A DNA stretch of 40,322 bases, from the IMG/VR virus record IMGVR_UViG_3300035670_000536, positions 1 to 40,322 of that record. One strand, given 5' to 3'. Under the pieces are notes generated by a model. It saw nothing but the letters and a program-made list of their open reading frames with translations. It was not told the DNA's origin and did not search any database. Positions 8,336 through 40,322 of the stretch are shown one piece after another (the stretch's first letter is position 1; each line of letters begins with the position of its first letter). The stretch is from a virus. Both the position numbers and the translations under genes were made by a program.

Positions 8336-8467
8336 ATGAACGCGCGCCCGGCATATCGCGCAGGCCTGCAGCTGGCAGGCTTGGCGCTTGCGACGGCGGC
8401 GTCGACGATCGCCGCTGGCGCGCTGCTATTTGTCGTTATGGTGATCGCCGGGGGCGCGCACGGATGA
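8336..8467 (+). CDS. Small single-span membrane protein, 43 aa
   Basis: This very short gene lies between the GapR-like gene and the excisionase-like gene and overlaps the latter by 4 bases. After a short basic N-terminus (MNARPAYR), residues 10-40 are almost entirely hydrophobic (LAGLALATAASTIAAGALLF and on), predicting one membrane span. No clear ribosome site is visible, so it may be translated by coupling. Function unknown. Confidence 0.5.
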   Translation: MNARPAYRAGLQLAGLALATAASTIAAGALLFVVMVIAGGAHG

Positions 8468-8757
8468 CGCCGCCGCCCTATGCCGGGCCCGTCGAGGCGC
8501 TATCGATCGAGGCCGCCGCCTCGCGCTTCGGCGTGTCCGCCGAGCATTTCCTAACCGTCTATGACGGGCCGCGCGTCTATTTGGGGCGCGACTCAAGTCT
8601 GCTAAGGATTCCGGCCTATGCCCTGCACGAATGGCTAGCGGGGCGCGCTTTCGTGCCGGGCGATGCCGGCGGCGGTTCGGCATGGGATAGGTTCGGCGAT
8701 GGCAAGAAAACCGGACGCGAAGGCGTTTCGAAACGTCCAAAGGGTGCGCGGTCGTGA
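8464..8757 (+). CDS. Excisionase-like DNA-binding protein
   Basis: The 97-aa product carries a MerR/Xis-type winged-helix pattern: LSIEAAASRFGVSAEHFLTV, then a beta wing with LRIPAYALHEWLAGR (about residues 14-60). Its basic C-terminal tail overlaps the integrase start by 59 bases. A small helix-turn-helix protein directly before an integrase is the usual place for an excisionase or recombination directionality factor. The assignment is by fold pattern and context. Confidence 0.65.
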   Translation: MTPPPYAGPVEALSIEAAASRFGVSAEHFLTVYDGPRVYLGRDSSLLRIPAYALHEWLAGRAFVPGDAGGGSAWDRFGDGKKTGREGVSKRPKGARS

Positions 8758-9808
8758 TGGCACAGTGCGCCTTTACCATAGGGTCGCCAAGGTCCGCCTT
8801 CCCGACGATTACGGCTCGCCGGAATTCGCGGAAGCATGGGCGGCGGCCGAAAAGTCGGTTCGCCGTGCCAGCGCGCAAGGATATGCGCCCGGCACGTTCG
8901 GTGAGCTTGTCGAGGCCTTCGAGGCTTCCGAAGACTGGCAGGCGCTCGCCGATCGCACGCGGGCCGATTACCGCAAGGTTCGCGATTGGCTTTATTCACA
9001 AGGCGCCGAGCGCGGCTTTACGCGCGAGCTCGATCAGGCGCGCGCCGAGCGGATCCTTGACGCCGCCGTCAAGGAAACGAATTGGCGGTTTGCCGTCTAT
9101 GTCCTGCAATATTGCCGGCGCGTCTGGAATTGGAGTCAGGAAAAGGCGAGCCGCAAAAAACGTTGGGGCGACGGGAATCCGTGGCGCGATATCCCGACGC
9201 CTAAGAAACCGCGCGCCCTCGCCGAGCGCGAGACTAACCGCGCCTGGACGCCGCAAGAGCTCGCCGCCGCCCTCGAGCGCGCGCCGATCGGGCTTCGCCG
9301 CGCTTATGTGCTCGGCGCTTGCGGTTTCGACGGTGGCACGATGACGGGCCTTCGCTGGACAGACTTTAACGAGGCGACGGGCGTTTTCGCCGGCGCCGAG
9401 CGCGTCAAAACCGGCGTCGCCGGATATACGATCGTTTATCGCCCCTTGCGGCCTTATCTCGAGGAAGGCCCGCGGCCGTCTGATTTCATTGTCACAAACC
9501 AGAACGGCGCCGCGTTCAAAACCGCGAACGCGCTGCAGACGCGATCAAGCGAATTCCTGCGCGGCCTCGCGACGGCCGGGATCGTCGGCGAAGGCCTGAC
9601 GCTTCACGGGCTGCGCCATACGATCGGCAAGGCGCTGGCAGACACGGGCGCGGATCTTCGCGCCATACAATCGGCCTTGCGCCATTCTACCGCGCGCATG
9701 TCGCTTAAGTATTCCGACGGCGCCGACAAGCGCCGAGCGGCGGAAGGGGCGGCGGATAACGTCGCCGAATGGTTCGGGAAGGGCTTCGAGGGGGCGGGCG
9801 ATGACTGA
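8699..9808 (+). CDS. int: Tyrosine recombinase / phage integrase
   Basis: I take the ATG at 8699 (MARKPDAKAF); an in-frame ATG at 8663 is also possible. The 369-aa protein has an N-terminal basic segment, a SAM-like core-binding domain (about residues 70-160) and a C-terminal catalytic domain. Catalytic residues are visible: Arg in TGLRW (about 219), HxxR in LHGLRHT (about 302-305), a His in ALRHST, and the nucleophilic Tyr in SLKYSD (about 338). It should integrate and excise the phage at an att site. The likely attP lies about 2.2 kb downstream. Confidence 0.95.
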   Translation: MARKPDAKAFRNVQRVRGRDGTVRLYHRVAKVRLPDDYGSPEFAEAWAAAEKSVRRASAQGYAPGTFGELVEAFEASEDWQALADRTRADYRKVRDWLYSQGAERGFTRELDQARAERILDAAVKETNWRFAVYVLQYCRRVWNWSQEKASRKKRWGDGNPWRDIPTPKKPRALAERETNRAWTPQELAAALERAPIGLRRAYVLGACGFDGGTMTGLRWTDFNEATGVFAGAERVKTGVAGYTIVYRPLRPYLEEGPRPSDFIVTNQNGAAFKTANALQTRSSEFLRGLATAGIVGEGLTLHGLRHTIGKALADTGADLRAIQSALRHSTARMSLKYSDGADKRRAAEGAADNVAEWFGKGFEGAGDD

Positions 9809-10058
9809 CGACATAGAAAAGCGCGCCTGCGGCTGCATTCATTGCAGCGACTTAGGCCTGATCTTTCCGGCTAAAAAACAATTCTTTCGGTCGCTTGGCG
9901 CCGCCGTGACAATTCCCGGGCCCGTGCGGCCGCTTCCGGTGCCGTGCGCCTTTTGCGTAGCCGGCGAGGTCGAAGAGCGGGTTATTTGGGAGATCGCGCA
10001 GCGCGAGCCGGGCGACGGCGAATTCGAGCTTAAGCGGTTCCGGCGGGAAAAGGGTTAG
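9801..10058 (+). CDS. Zinc-ribbon-like small protein
   Basis: This 85-aa protein contains CGCIHC (about residues 10-15) and CAFC (about 49-52), two CxxC knuckles of the kind that hold a zinc ion in a ribbon. The C-terminus is charged (RFRREKG). The start overlaps the integrase stop by 8 bases. Such ribbons bind nucleic acid or protein partners; the exact role is unknown. Confidence 0.65.
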   Translation: MTDDIEKRACGCIHCSDLGLIFPAKKQFFRSLGAAVTIPGPVRPLPVPCAFCVAGEVEERVIWEIAQREPGDGEFELKRFRREKG

Positions 10059-10061
10059 GGT

Positions 10062-10346
10062 ATGGCGCGCGCGATTTCAATAACCGGCGGCAACGTCATT
10101 ATGAAGGCGCCGAAGGGCGAGGAAGATCGCGTTTGCGATTTGCAGGTTTTCGCCCATCGCGGCGGCCTTGTTTCACGCTGGCGCCTTAGCGCCCTCGAGA
10201 TCGAGGAAGTTGCGCGCACGGGCTGCATTTATCTCGAGGTCATGGGGCACGGAATGCCGCCCGTGTTCATCGGATCCGAGTCCGAAATGCGAGCCTTTAC
10301 TGTCGACTATGGAAAGCCGCTGCCGATTCAAACGGAAGAGGGTTAG
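10062..10346 (+). CDS. Hypothetical protein, 94 aa
   Basis: A beta-rich small protein with the segment VFAHRGGLVSRWRLSALEIEE near the middle. No family is recognised. The upstream gene's stop lies inside AAAGGGTTAGGG just before this ATG, so ribosome site and stop overlap. The same layout recurs before the next gene at 10350, which suggests coupled translation. Confidence 0.65.
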   Translation: MARAISITGGNVIMKAPKGEEDRVCDLQVFAHRGGLVSRWRLSALEIEEVARTGCIYLEVMGHGMPPVFIGSESEMRAFTVDYGKPLPIQTEEG

Positions 10347-10349
10347 GGC

Positions 10350-10574
10350 ATGACAGACGGAAAGCCGGTAGTTTTCGGGATAGATCTCGCCAGCGGCGAA
10401 GACCTGCTAATGATTCACTATGCGGGCGTTGGCATGACGCCGGCCGAATTCGTCGCGCATCTGCGCGGCCGATTTACCGACGGCGCGCTTTCGTATGAGG
10501 TCGACGCAACCGTTCTGCATATGCTGCTAGACTTGGCGGAAATCTCGGCGCGGCCGCGGAGGGCGGTCATATGA
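10350..10574 (+). CDS. Hypothetical protein, 74 aa
   Basis: A small protein with a beta hairpin-like N-terminus (KPVVFGIDLASGEDLLMIHY) and a helical C-terminus. It is preceded by GAGGGTTAGGG, which contains the upstream stop. It overlaps the next gene by 4 bases (ATGA). No recognised motif. Confidence 0.62.
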   Translation: MTDGKPVVFGIDLASGEDLLMIHYAGVGMTPAEFVAHLRGRFTDGALSYEVDATVLHMLLDLAEISARPRRAVI

Positions 10575-10939
10575 CGCGCCAGGCGCCGCAAGCGGTCTAT
10601 AACGACTACGCGCTTCATAAATTCGCCGACGCGGGCCAACTGCTTTGGATTGGTGGCCCTGTTGGCGCTTACGATCGGGCGCGGCGTTTTTTGGCATATT
10701 CGCCGCGCGAGCTTCGCCGCGTGCCGATGGAAAGCGCTTTTCGCGCGCTGCAGGGCGCGCGGCGCGGCGGGGTCGCCTTTGTGTTTAGGCCGCACTCTGA
10801 CGCGGCGAGTTGCGACTTTCATTCCTATATCGAGGTCGTCGACATGGCCGCGCACAAGCAATGGGCGACGTTAGACGCGGCCGCTTTTCTCGAGATCGTC
10901 GATATGAACGAGAGCCGGCCGGCGAGGGGCAAGGCATGA
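10571..10939 (+). CDS. Hypothetical protein, 122 aa
   Basis: The product is a mixed alpha/beta protein. Recognisable stretches are LLWIGGPVGAYDRARRFLAY near residues 19-38 and a C-terminal helix that repeats a VVDMAAHK / IVDMNES pattern. I cannot assign a function. It is linked to both neighbours by ATGA overlaps within the rightward operon. Confidence 0.65.
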   Translation: MTRQAPQAVYNDYALHKFADAGQLLWIGGPVGAYDRARRFLAYSPRELRRVPMESAFRALQGARRGGVAFVFRPHSDAASCDFHSYIEVVDMAAHKQWATLDAAAFLEIVDMNESRPARGKA

Positions 10940-11223
10940 CGCGCCAGGCCGCGACGCTTCGCCCGGCGATCAGCCTCGAAATGGACGCCGAGTCCGTGCG
11001 CCCGTTCATGCGCTCGCTGCTCGAGGGCGGGCGCGTTAAAGTCTCGATCGAAAGCGAACACGGTTCGGCCTTCGGCGCCTTTGAGATACTGAGCGCCGAC
11101 AAGGGCGGAAAGGCTCGAAAGCCTTCACTTGCCCTAATCCAAGCCGAGCCCCTGCAGCCCAAACGTAAGCGCGCGAGGGTGTCAAAACCTGTCACCCACA
11201 AAAAAGGGAAGGCGACGCCATGA
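10936..11223 (+). CDS. Hypothetical protein with basic tail, 95 aa
   Basis: The ATG at 10936 overlaps the previous stop. The N-terminal two thirds are an alpha/beta fold with MRSLLEGGRVKVSIESEHGS. The last 25 residues are very basic (KRKRARVSKPV and KKGKA), which suggests nucleic-acid binding. The tail's DNA carries the first copy of an 18-bp repeat (11181-11198). Function unknown. Confidence 0.62.
   Translation: MTRQAATLRPAISLEMDAESVRPFMRSLLEGGRVKVSIESEHGSAFGAFEILSADKGGKARKPSLALIQAEPLQPKRKRARVSKPVTHKKGKATP
11181..11198 (+). repeat. 18-bp direct repeat, copy 1
   Basis: GTCAAAACCTGTCACCCA, followed by an A-rich stretch, lies about 22 bases before the start at 11220. A second copy at 11675-11692 differs in one base. 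Both are near the 3' end of one gene and just before the next. Possible roles are a regulator site or an integrase-related site. Confidence 0.5.
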
Positions 11224-11636
11224 AAGAAGAGGAAATCGAAAAGCTTCGGCTTTGCTATATCGATCAGGACGAAACGCCGTCCGCGCTGGCGTTCTTTACG
11301 TCCGACTTTGAGGGGCAATGGGGCGACGATTGGAATGACTCGCCCTATGAGTCGAACGCGGGGGCGCCCTATCCCGCGCCAGGCCGCACGCTTTGCGAGG
11401 TCGAATTTAGGGTCGAGCTCATGACGCCGGCCGATGCATCAGATTTCCATCATTCGGGCGTGTCCGTCGAAACGATAAACACCGGCCGCGTTGCATGGCT
11501 GGCGCCGACGCCGGCGCAATACAAGGGCGGCGCCCGCTGCATTTATGCGGGTTGCACGCTTGCCGAGTTCCGCCGGCTAATTGATCTCGCCGACGGGCGC
11601 ATTCTTGCCTTTCACGTCAGGGAAGAGCTGCTTTGA
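11220..11636 (+). CDS. Hypothetical acidic protein, 138 aa
   Basis: A soluble, acidic protein; its middle is rich in Trp, Asp and Tyr (GQWGDDWNDSPYESNAGAPY). It has four Cys, at about residues 12, 60, 107 and 112, without CxxC spacing. No recognised family. It overlaps the upstream gene by 4 bases. Confidence 0.62.
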   Translation: MKEEEIEKLRLCYIDQDETPSALAFFTSDFEGQWGDDWNDSPYESNAGAPYPAPGRTLCEVEFRVELMTPADASDFHHSGVSVETINTGRVAWLAPTPAQYKGGARCIYAGCTLAEFRRLIDLADGRILAFHVREELL

Positions 11637-11674
11637 TTACGTTTCCACAATCGACAAAACGCCGGCGCGAAGGC

Positions 11675-11692
11675 GTCAAAAACTGTCACCCA
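11675..11692 (+). repeat. 18-bp direct repeat, copy 2
   Basis: GTCAAAAACTGTCACCCA differs from copy 1 at 11181-11198 by one base. It is intergenic here, 22 bases before the ATG at 11714. The spacing to the next gene is nearly the same as for copy 1, which favours a role in gene expression. Confidence 0.5.
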
Positions 11693-11713
11693 TCGCAAAA
11701 CGGGAGTTGTGAA

Positions 11714-12004
11714 ATGAAGCTTTCAGATTTTGCCCAAGCCGTGCGCAAAGCGTCAGGCGAGCCGGCGCTAATGCCGTGGCAAGTTCGATACCTAGATTTG
11801 TTGCAATCGCACTTGGCCAAGCAATCGACAAACGGCGGCGGCGCGGCTTCTGAGCTAACCGATTATGAAGAGCAAAAGGCCACAGAAGACGCCTGGGCGG
11901 ATGATCTTCTAGCGCGCAACCAATCGACAAACGACGCCGGCGCGGCTAGTAATCCACAAGCCGCGCCGGCCGCCACTGTAAAACAGTCCGAAACCGAACT
12001 GTAA
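11714..12004 (+). CDS. Hypothetical protein with internal repeat, 96 aa
   Basis: The ATG at 11714 has a GGGAG ribosome site; a TTG-started longer frame from 11633 is less likely. The N-terminus (MKLSDFAQAVRKASGEPALM) looks helical. A short motif is repeated with few changes, QSTNGGGAAS and QSTNDAGAAS, about 33 residues apart. The 3' end contains the first two CTGTAAAACA repeats of the probable attP. Function unknown. Confidence 0.55.
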   Translation: MKLSDFAQAVRKASGEPALMPWQVRYLDLLQSHLAKQSTNGGGAASELTDYEEQKATEDAWADDLLARNQSTNDAGAASNPQAAPAATVKQSETEL

Positions 12005-12027
12005 AACACAAAACCGGAGCGCCTAAA

Positions 12028-12516
12028 ATGCGAATGAAATCAAGTCTGAGGCTCTATGGCGGAGTGGTCACGCAGCGGATTGCAAATCCGTTAAGCCCCA
12101 TAGAAAACATTAGGTTTTTTCTGGCAAAAACCGCCCTTGGGGGGCGGAACGGGGCGCGAACCTGTAAAACATTATGCACGGGCGCGGCGGCGCTGGCGCT
12201 CGCGGGTTGCGGCGCGCCGACGGTCGCGCCGTGCCCATCCATTGCGCCGCCGGTCGACGTTGCGCCAGAGCTTGCCGGCGGGCCGCAATTTCGAAGCCGC
12301 TGCATAGTCTTGACCGGCGGCGGCTCATGGGAATGCTACCCCGGCGAAATGCGGGCAATTCTCGATATATGCGGTCTGGGCGGAAACCCGGGTTGCGAGG
12401 CCGAAGCCCGCGCCGCCGTTGATGCGATTTCGCTGGAGCGCGCCAGGTCTAGCGGTGCGGCCGCCTTGCTCGATATTCACGACGCGGCCGTCGCCTCGAG
12501 GCAGGCCAATGACTAA
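12028..12516 (+). CDS. Lipoprotein-like ORF with tRNA-derived N-terminus
   Basis: The frame from ATG 12028 (ribosome site GGAG at 12016-12019) gives 162 aa. A lipoprotein signal with lipobox LAGC appears only at about residues 52-68, much too far in for a normal signal peptide. The first 25 residues are encoded by the tRNA-Cys fragment. No ATG, GTG or TTG start is available in frame just before the hydrophobic stretch. I infer that att or tRNA sequence was inserted at the front of a lipoprotein gene, so export of the present product is doubtful. The mature part is small, Cys-containing and unrecognised. Confidence 0.45.
   Translation: MRMKSSLRLYGGVVTQRIANPLSPIENIRFFLAKTALGGRNGARTCKTLCTGAAALALAGCGAPTVAPCPSIAPPVDVAPELAGGPQFRSRCIVLTGGGSWECYPGEMRAILDICGLGGNPGCEAEARAAVDAISLERARSSGAAALLDIHDAAVASRQAND
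12050..12104 (+). pseudogene. Partial tRNA-Cys (GCA) lacking the T arm
   Basis: A 7-base acceptor strand GGCTCTA (12050-12056), TG, a D arm closed by GCG/CGC (12059-12073), A, and a perfect anticodon arm GCGGA-TTGCAAA-TCCGT (12075-12091) with anticodon GCA match alphaproteobacterial tRNA-Cys. Similarity ends in the variable loop: no T arm and no TAGAGCC acceptor strand follow. CCATAGA at 12098-12104 can instead pair with TCTATGG at 12053-12059 (7 bp). I read it as a phage-borne 5' tRNA segment serving as attP core rather than a working tRNA. Confidence 0.7.
12126..12147 (-). terminator. Possible minus-strand terminator
   Basis: CCGCCC (12131-12136) and GGGCGG (12142-12147) form a 6-bp stem with a 5-base loop; on the minus strand it is followed by TTTTT. 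It lies inside the plus-strand ORF, just after the tRNA fragment. It could stop antisense transcription or protect the att region. The stem is short. Confidence 0.3.
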
Positions 12517-40147: not shown

Positions 40148-40322
40148 CTTTTCATCCGAACGCCAAGCCCCGGCGCGCGGTCGAATGGACGGGCCCGCCG
40201 CACGGTTTCGAAGATCCGGCGAGCCCTAGGGCGGATTGCGGCGCCCTTGTTCCGTATACTGACGATAACGCCCGGGGCGGGGTCAACAAAGTTTCCCAAT
40301 TTCGCGGCCATGCGCGGGAAGC
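40148..40322. other. Terminal non-coding region joined to 1-52 on a circular map
   Basis: With 1-52 this forms roughly 230 bases without a gene I accept. It holds GC-rich direct and inverted short repeats and the sequence up to the C/G palindrome at 34-48. In this phage type the cos or pac region is expected between HNH and terS, so this is the likely packaging region. I see no tRNA or promoter of note. Confidence 0.4.

Follow-up and report, generated by a model that had tools for sequence, protein, structure and literature searches.

Our results indicate that the region between positions 11976 and 12171 is, with high confidence, the attachment site (attP) of a temperate phage that rebuilds a tRNA-Cys gene of its host by supplying the 5' half, the host being presumably one of the Caulobacterales-type Alphaproteobacteria. 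The window, by which we mean the whole stretch of 40,322 nucleotides analysed here, is a single virus record. A metagenomic relative (L006) spans both of its ends, with about 10 bases between position 40322 and position 1; since the ends of the window lie elsewhere and join in this relative, the window represents a near-complete, unintegrated genome that was opened away from attP and in which the attachment site is whole. The window terminase shares at most about 45% identity with those of known phages, and a nucleotide search of phage records with the window gave no match. The features on which the argument relies are the following.

8464-8754, + strand: small open reading frame just upstream of the integrase gene, with tblastn homologues that occupy the equivalent position ahead of int in G606 and G529
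8663-9808, + strand: tyrosine integrase gene, int (PHROG integrase, E 2.8e-24; Pfam Phage_integrase)
9801-12004, + strand: about seven small same-strand open reading frames between int and attP, the last ending inside the second arm repeat
11976-11985, + strand: left arm-type repeat 1, CTGTAAAACA, 74 bp before tRNA nucleotide 1
11999-12008, + strand: left arm-type repeat 2, CTGTAAAACA, 51 bp before tRNA nucleotide 1 and 23 bp from repeat 1
12024-12029, + strand: TAAAAT box, proposed in the preliminary description as a candidate -10 element
12028-12516, + strand: open frame running through the tRNA half, lipoprotein-like (LALAGC) after the right arm; integration would split it
12050-12091, + strand: 5' half of tRNA-Cys(GCA), the predicted attP core, 41/42 identical to the tRNA-Cys of the probable host; the junctions of relatives lie at nucleotide 40/41
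12162-12171, + strand: right arm-type repeat, CTGTAAAACA, 112 bp after tRNA nucleotide 1

The half contains the acceptor 5' strand, the D arm and the anticodon arm with GCA, and its identity to tRNA-Cys stops past the anticodon stem. The claim that the phage holds the 5' end of the tRNA through the anticodon arm is borne out by 41 identical positions of 42 to genuine tRNA-Cys genes in two Hyphomonadaceae genomes, which also provide the extended identity expected of the tRNA-Cys of a probable host. The Rfam tRNA model scored 23.5 bits on the half (gathering score 29), leaving the 3' part unmatched, and ARAGORN found no complete tRNA within the window. Strand exchange would fall in or adjoining the anticodon arm, at about 12074-12089. 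Three exact copies of CTGTAAAACA, all on the + strand, occur in the 40,322-base genome, two to the left and one to the right of the half and none anywhere else, exactly as had been described. When one mismatch is allowed, the number of matches rises to five, against 0.64 expected, and five were reached in none of 100 shuffles; the layout of the triple appeared in 0 of 300 shuffles of both arms.

Strong support for the attP reading comes from lysogens of related phages. The tRNA-Cys 5'-half pattern was scanned against 299 genomes from the order of a matching Hyphomonadaceae genome, and it matched once in most of them and twice in five. At E 1e-30, an integrase profile matched only G606 and G529 in this order sample; in the family of G606 it matched G606, G577, G721 and G692. 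The half and a complete tRNA-Cys lie on one contig and on the same strand in G606 (44 kb apart) and in G577 (38.8 kb apart), with int just upstream of the complete copy in both. The two junctions are on separate contigs in the other two of these four lysogen genomes: G529 has int beside the complete copy, and in G721 one contig carries the half beside a host gene, and a second contig has the complete tRNA-Cys beside int. On the host upstream side the lysogens have nucleotides 1-40/41 of the tRNA only, followed by phage DNA; on the other side come, in order, int, 14-32 bp, a complete tRNA-Cys and the host tRNA-Asn. At an empty site (L003), an uninterrupted tRNA-Cys is followed by tRNA-Asn. The host gene upstream of the half is of the same kind in G529 and G721, and we interpret its product as a protein-L-isoaspartate methyltransferase. 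Elements that enclose int and are bordered by a 5' fragment on the upstream side and by a complete tRNA of the same orientation on the downstream side were found in G606, G577 and the viral contig L228. The search for prophages with tRNA-Cys at a junction, which the preliminary description had recommended, has returned four genomes and one viral contig, with junctions after the anticodon stem. Among the bacterial genomes scanned (the 299-genome order sample and the family of G606) there was no lysogen of the window phage itself. G623 was rejected as a lysogen, given that both of its matches are complete tRNA-Cys genes on short contigs with no prophage; G675 has two pattern matches on separate contigs, and the integrase of G692 faces the 3' end of a tRNA-Phe instead.

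The point of exchange bears on which DNA the rebuilt gene contains. The D-loop sequence in G721 is GTTACGC in the displaced host half and GTGACGC in the rebuilt tRNA. If the complete copy joins a phage front to a host back, this difference places the exchange 3' of that base, and the simplest reading is that the rebuilt tRNA-Cys of G721 is a phage-host chimera with a phage-derived front, in line with the earlier proposal that integration replaces the front half of the host gene. It could be argued instead that strands are exchanged near tRNA nucleotide 1, in which case the front half would remain that of the host and the swap would be confined to upstream DNA. The identity block does begin at nucleotide 1, the junctions alone leave the exchange point unfixed in most lysogens, and the G721 difference may stem from mutation after integration. 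Nevertheless, the D-loop base on that same assumption argues for an exchange further 3', and the blocks end at the anticodon stem, which is the usual cut site of tyrosine integrases in tRNA genes (PMC8371274). We regard an exchange near nucleotide 1 as highly improbable and favour one in or next to the anticodon arm.

The attP of each relative was reconstructed by joining both flanks of the element, and the positions of the arms, relative to tRNA nucleotide 1, are as follows.

Window: TGTAAAAC at -73, -50 and +113
G721: TGTCAAAA at -73, AGTAAAAC at -50, TGTAAAAC at +112
G606: TATTGGCA at -75, -52 and +132
G529: TGGAAAAC at -73, TGGAAAAA at -51, TGGAAAAC at +124
G577: AGTCTAAG at -72, TGTCTAAG at -51 and +124

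One geometry is common to all five attP, with left repeats near -73 and -50 and a right repeat between +112 and +134, and the left pair is spaced by 21-23 bp in each. The arm sequence is nearly identical in the window and G721 and different in G606, G529 and G577. Shuffling of the arms produced such a triple in no more than 2 of 300 trials, none of them placing it at the conserved position; the triple of G721, too degenerate for the automatic shuffle test, was read by eye with the window motif. Repeats of arm type on both sides of the core, as in lambda-type attP, are present in all five, and their conservation supports the view that they are putative integrase arm sites. The right arm takes one of three places, at about +112, +123 and +133, in steps of about one helical turn; these steps emerge from the right arms of the window (12162-12171), L118, L157, L183 and L188.

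This geometry also bears on whether the half is kept for a function of its RNA, as a tRNA-like or tRNA-fragment decoy or regulator with no part in recombination. TCTATGG (12053-12059) and CCATAGA (12098-12104) can pair into a hairpin that would close the window half, as such a role might suggest; the fold z-score is only -1.7, weakly better than shuffles, the relatives share the geometry of the DNA arms and not the sequence downstream of the half, and integrated forms exist. We find an RNA role scarcely credible, and the attP reading, as first proposed, draws support from lysogens of relatives that have related integrases and the same arm layout.

The integrases of the window, G606, G577, G529 and G721 form one side of a branch with support of 99/97, and the window enzyme is 51% identical to that of G606 and 53% to that of G721; in viral contigs it has only distant relatives, at about 27%. 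The nearest outgroup integrases that adjoin a tRNA (tRNA-Thr, -Arg, -Lys or -Phe) are convergent with it, the usual 3' type. The window integrase has Asp in the Arg I column, together with the K, H-x-x-R, H and Tyr positions and a GFDGG motif. Asp at Arg I is also found in G606 and G721, and in G692 and G254, both next to tRNA-Phe. K-x-x-N replaces H-x-x-R in G529, G577 and the contig L228, and the G529 enzyme is also without the Tyr. Non-canonical catalytic residues were seen in the integrases at window 8663-9808, L120:6551-7681, L185, L156, L184 and L228. A missing Arg I has a precedent in IntDOT. As judged from its sequence, the window integrase, with Asp in place of the canonical Arg I, is a putative recombinase. 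The product of 8464-8754, just upstream, may be a helix-turn-helix excisionase or regulator; a weak HTH_17 match, below the cut-off, occurs in its G606 and G529 homologues only.

With the last base of its stop codon at 9808, int is separated from tRNA nucleotide 1 by a gap of 2,241 bp. The distance, noted as unusual in the preliminary description, is real and exceptional when set against the 14-32 bp of the related lysogens. Nearly all of the small open reading frames at 9801-12004 are without family matches, and they are absent in compact relatives; as int lies directly upstream of tRNA-Cys in the lysogens, they look like later insertions. The distance could also mean that the half is a dead remnant of imprecise excision or recombination, with the real attP elsewhere and close to int, and an open frame does run through the half. 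Yet the half is undecayed (41/42) and flanked by arm repeats, the same layout is an active junction in relatives with related integrases, and a random fragment would not end at one tRNA position across unrelated elements. Intermediate gaps between int and attP, of 458-1194 bp, exist in other viral contigs. We consider a remnant very unlikely.

For the relatives, the evidence establishes the two junctions, the blocks of identity, the geometry of the arms and the phage-derived base in a rebuilt tRNA; the window phage probably behaves as they do. Its integrase would bind the two left arm sites and the one right arm site, and strands would be exchanged within the anticodon arm of the host tRNA-Cys gene or right beside it. 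The phage half, from tRNA nucleotide 1 to about 40, would then join the host 3' half at attR to give a complete tRNA-Cys, and the host's own 5' half and its upstream region would be left at attL as a fragment. The DNA upstream of the rebuilt tRNA in the lysogens is phage-derived, and the rebuilt gene would be transcribed from it, with transcripts that either read through from int or start at a local promoter. In archaea, there is precedent for a rebuilt tRNA that uses the integrase promoter (PMC8371274). The TAAAAT box had been put forward as the promoter at 12023-12028 and in fact lies one base further on, at 12024-12029. A sigma-70 scan upstream of the rebuilt tRNA gave nothing clearly above shuffles, neither a shared site nor support for TAAAAT; since most host upstream regions fail the same scan too, it is a weak test, and the box stays a candidate.

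A lipoprotein-like frame follows the right arm in the window (12028-12516, for which PHROG and Pfam gave no matches) and in G606 (L118:2310 onward), and in both the displaced host tRNA promoter would read into this frame after integration. Since G529 and G721 are without such a frame, we abandoned the hypothesis of a phage lipoprotein gene driven in every case by the displaced promoter.

Several known systems resemble this one in part. In the Islander catalogue, 159 of 3919 islands have a displaced 5' fragment, against 3760 of the 3' type (PMC4383910), in agreement with the earlier remark that most phages carry the 3' end of the tRNA. The likeness to the 5' class of that catalogue is close: a tyrosine integrase splits the tRNA, the 5' fragment is displaced and a complete gene lies at the other side (PMC4383910). 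The window has the 5' portion of a tRNA ending at the anticodon region and no 3' half, as in that class; a difference is that the catalogue paper describes no attP arm layout for its 5' islands (PMC4383910). The pTN3-like integrases of Thermococcales also use the 5' half of a tRNA as attB, with 41 bp shared and the tRNA rebuilt away from its original promoter (PMC8371274; PMC5495485). They differ in being archaeal and in using tRNA-Leu, with an attP inside the int gene, which is disrupted on integration, whereas here an intact int precedes the tRNA, both in the window and in the lysogens. A review on these integrases describes 5'-half integration in bacteria as "seldom encountered" (PMC8371274 / PMC5495485). 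Canonical phages of the 3' end share with the window related tyrosine integrases next to a tRNA, but in them int and tRNA converge, with the tRNA 3' end facing int, while here the two are co-directional and integration uses the 5' half. In the tRNA-dependent lysogeny of actinobacteriophages, an essential tRNA gene is likewise targeted and expression then depends on the prophage; those phages bring their own complete tRNA and the target is not rebuilt (PMC10865867), whereas the window is without a tRNA gene and a complete tRNA-Cys is rebuilt in its relatives. Integration by a 5' fragment is a known minority mode, to which the tRNA-Cys case is added here, unusually well documented by relatives.

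In viral contigs we found 113 stretches with the tRNA-Cys 5'-half pattern, none of them with the exact half of the window. Seventy-three integrases adjoin the pattern, and 45 of these, from several lineages, are beside a 5'-type tRNA-Cys junction: 17 just upstream of the half, 10 upstream of a complete copy, as at attR, and 18 downstream of the half and convergent, the other 28 being ordinary 3'-end types; these counts are not frequencies, given a query that favours 5' halves and the presence of near-copies among the contigs. The arm layout recurs in several of the viral-contig attP, such as L200, L206, L221 and L285. Many of the alphaproteobacterial viral contigs L199-L301 carry a 5' half, and a second arrangement among them has a convergent int just downstream. 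In the literature searched, a scope that left out most subscription journals, we found no description of this breadth of tRNA-Cys 5'-half use in Alphaproteobacteria. To judge from the viral contigs, this mode seems to be common at the tRNA-Cys locus and no mere curiosity.

A tRNA gene ordinarily retains its own promoter after integration. In each lysogen genome the pattern matched the half and one complete gene only, and from these matches the host seems to have no tRNA-Cys gene besides the rebuilt one. As the phage supplies the promoter-side half of this gene, a lysogen would be expected to need transcription from prophage DNA to stay viable, and the sequence of the tRNA itself could be altered by the phage-supplied front. 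Five aligned attP, an empty site and the D-loop marker make the exchange point, the arm-site code and the expression of the tRNA directly testable. More tentatively, as a whole that we hold possible and would not yet bet on, several integrase lineages in Alphaproteobacteria, of phages and of small satellite-like elements, may have settled on the 5' half of tRNA-Cys; the apparently sole tRNA-Cys of the lysogen would then be under phage transcription with a phage-written front, the orphaned host promoter would be turned into the prophage, the integrase of the window clade would work without the canonical Arg I, and the state of the prophage could tune cysteine decoding or hold it hostage.

At L228:437-10551, a complete element of 10.04 kb is bordered by a half on one side and a complete tRNA-Cys on the other, and its left arms lie at -74 and -52. 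Its genes encode a capsid protein, a prohead protease, a portal, an AAA ATPase and an integrase, and no recognised terminase or tail was found among the open reading frames tested. Elements of this type probably resemble capsid-forming satellites. A similar gene set, plus a VapE-like protein, is present in G529 (L156 and L157).
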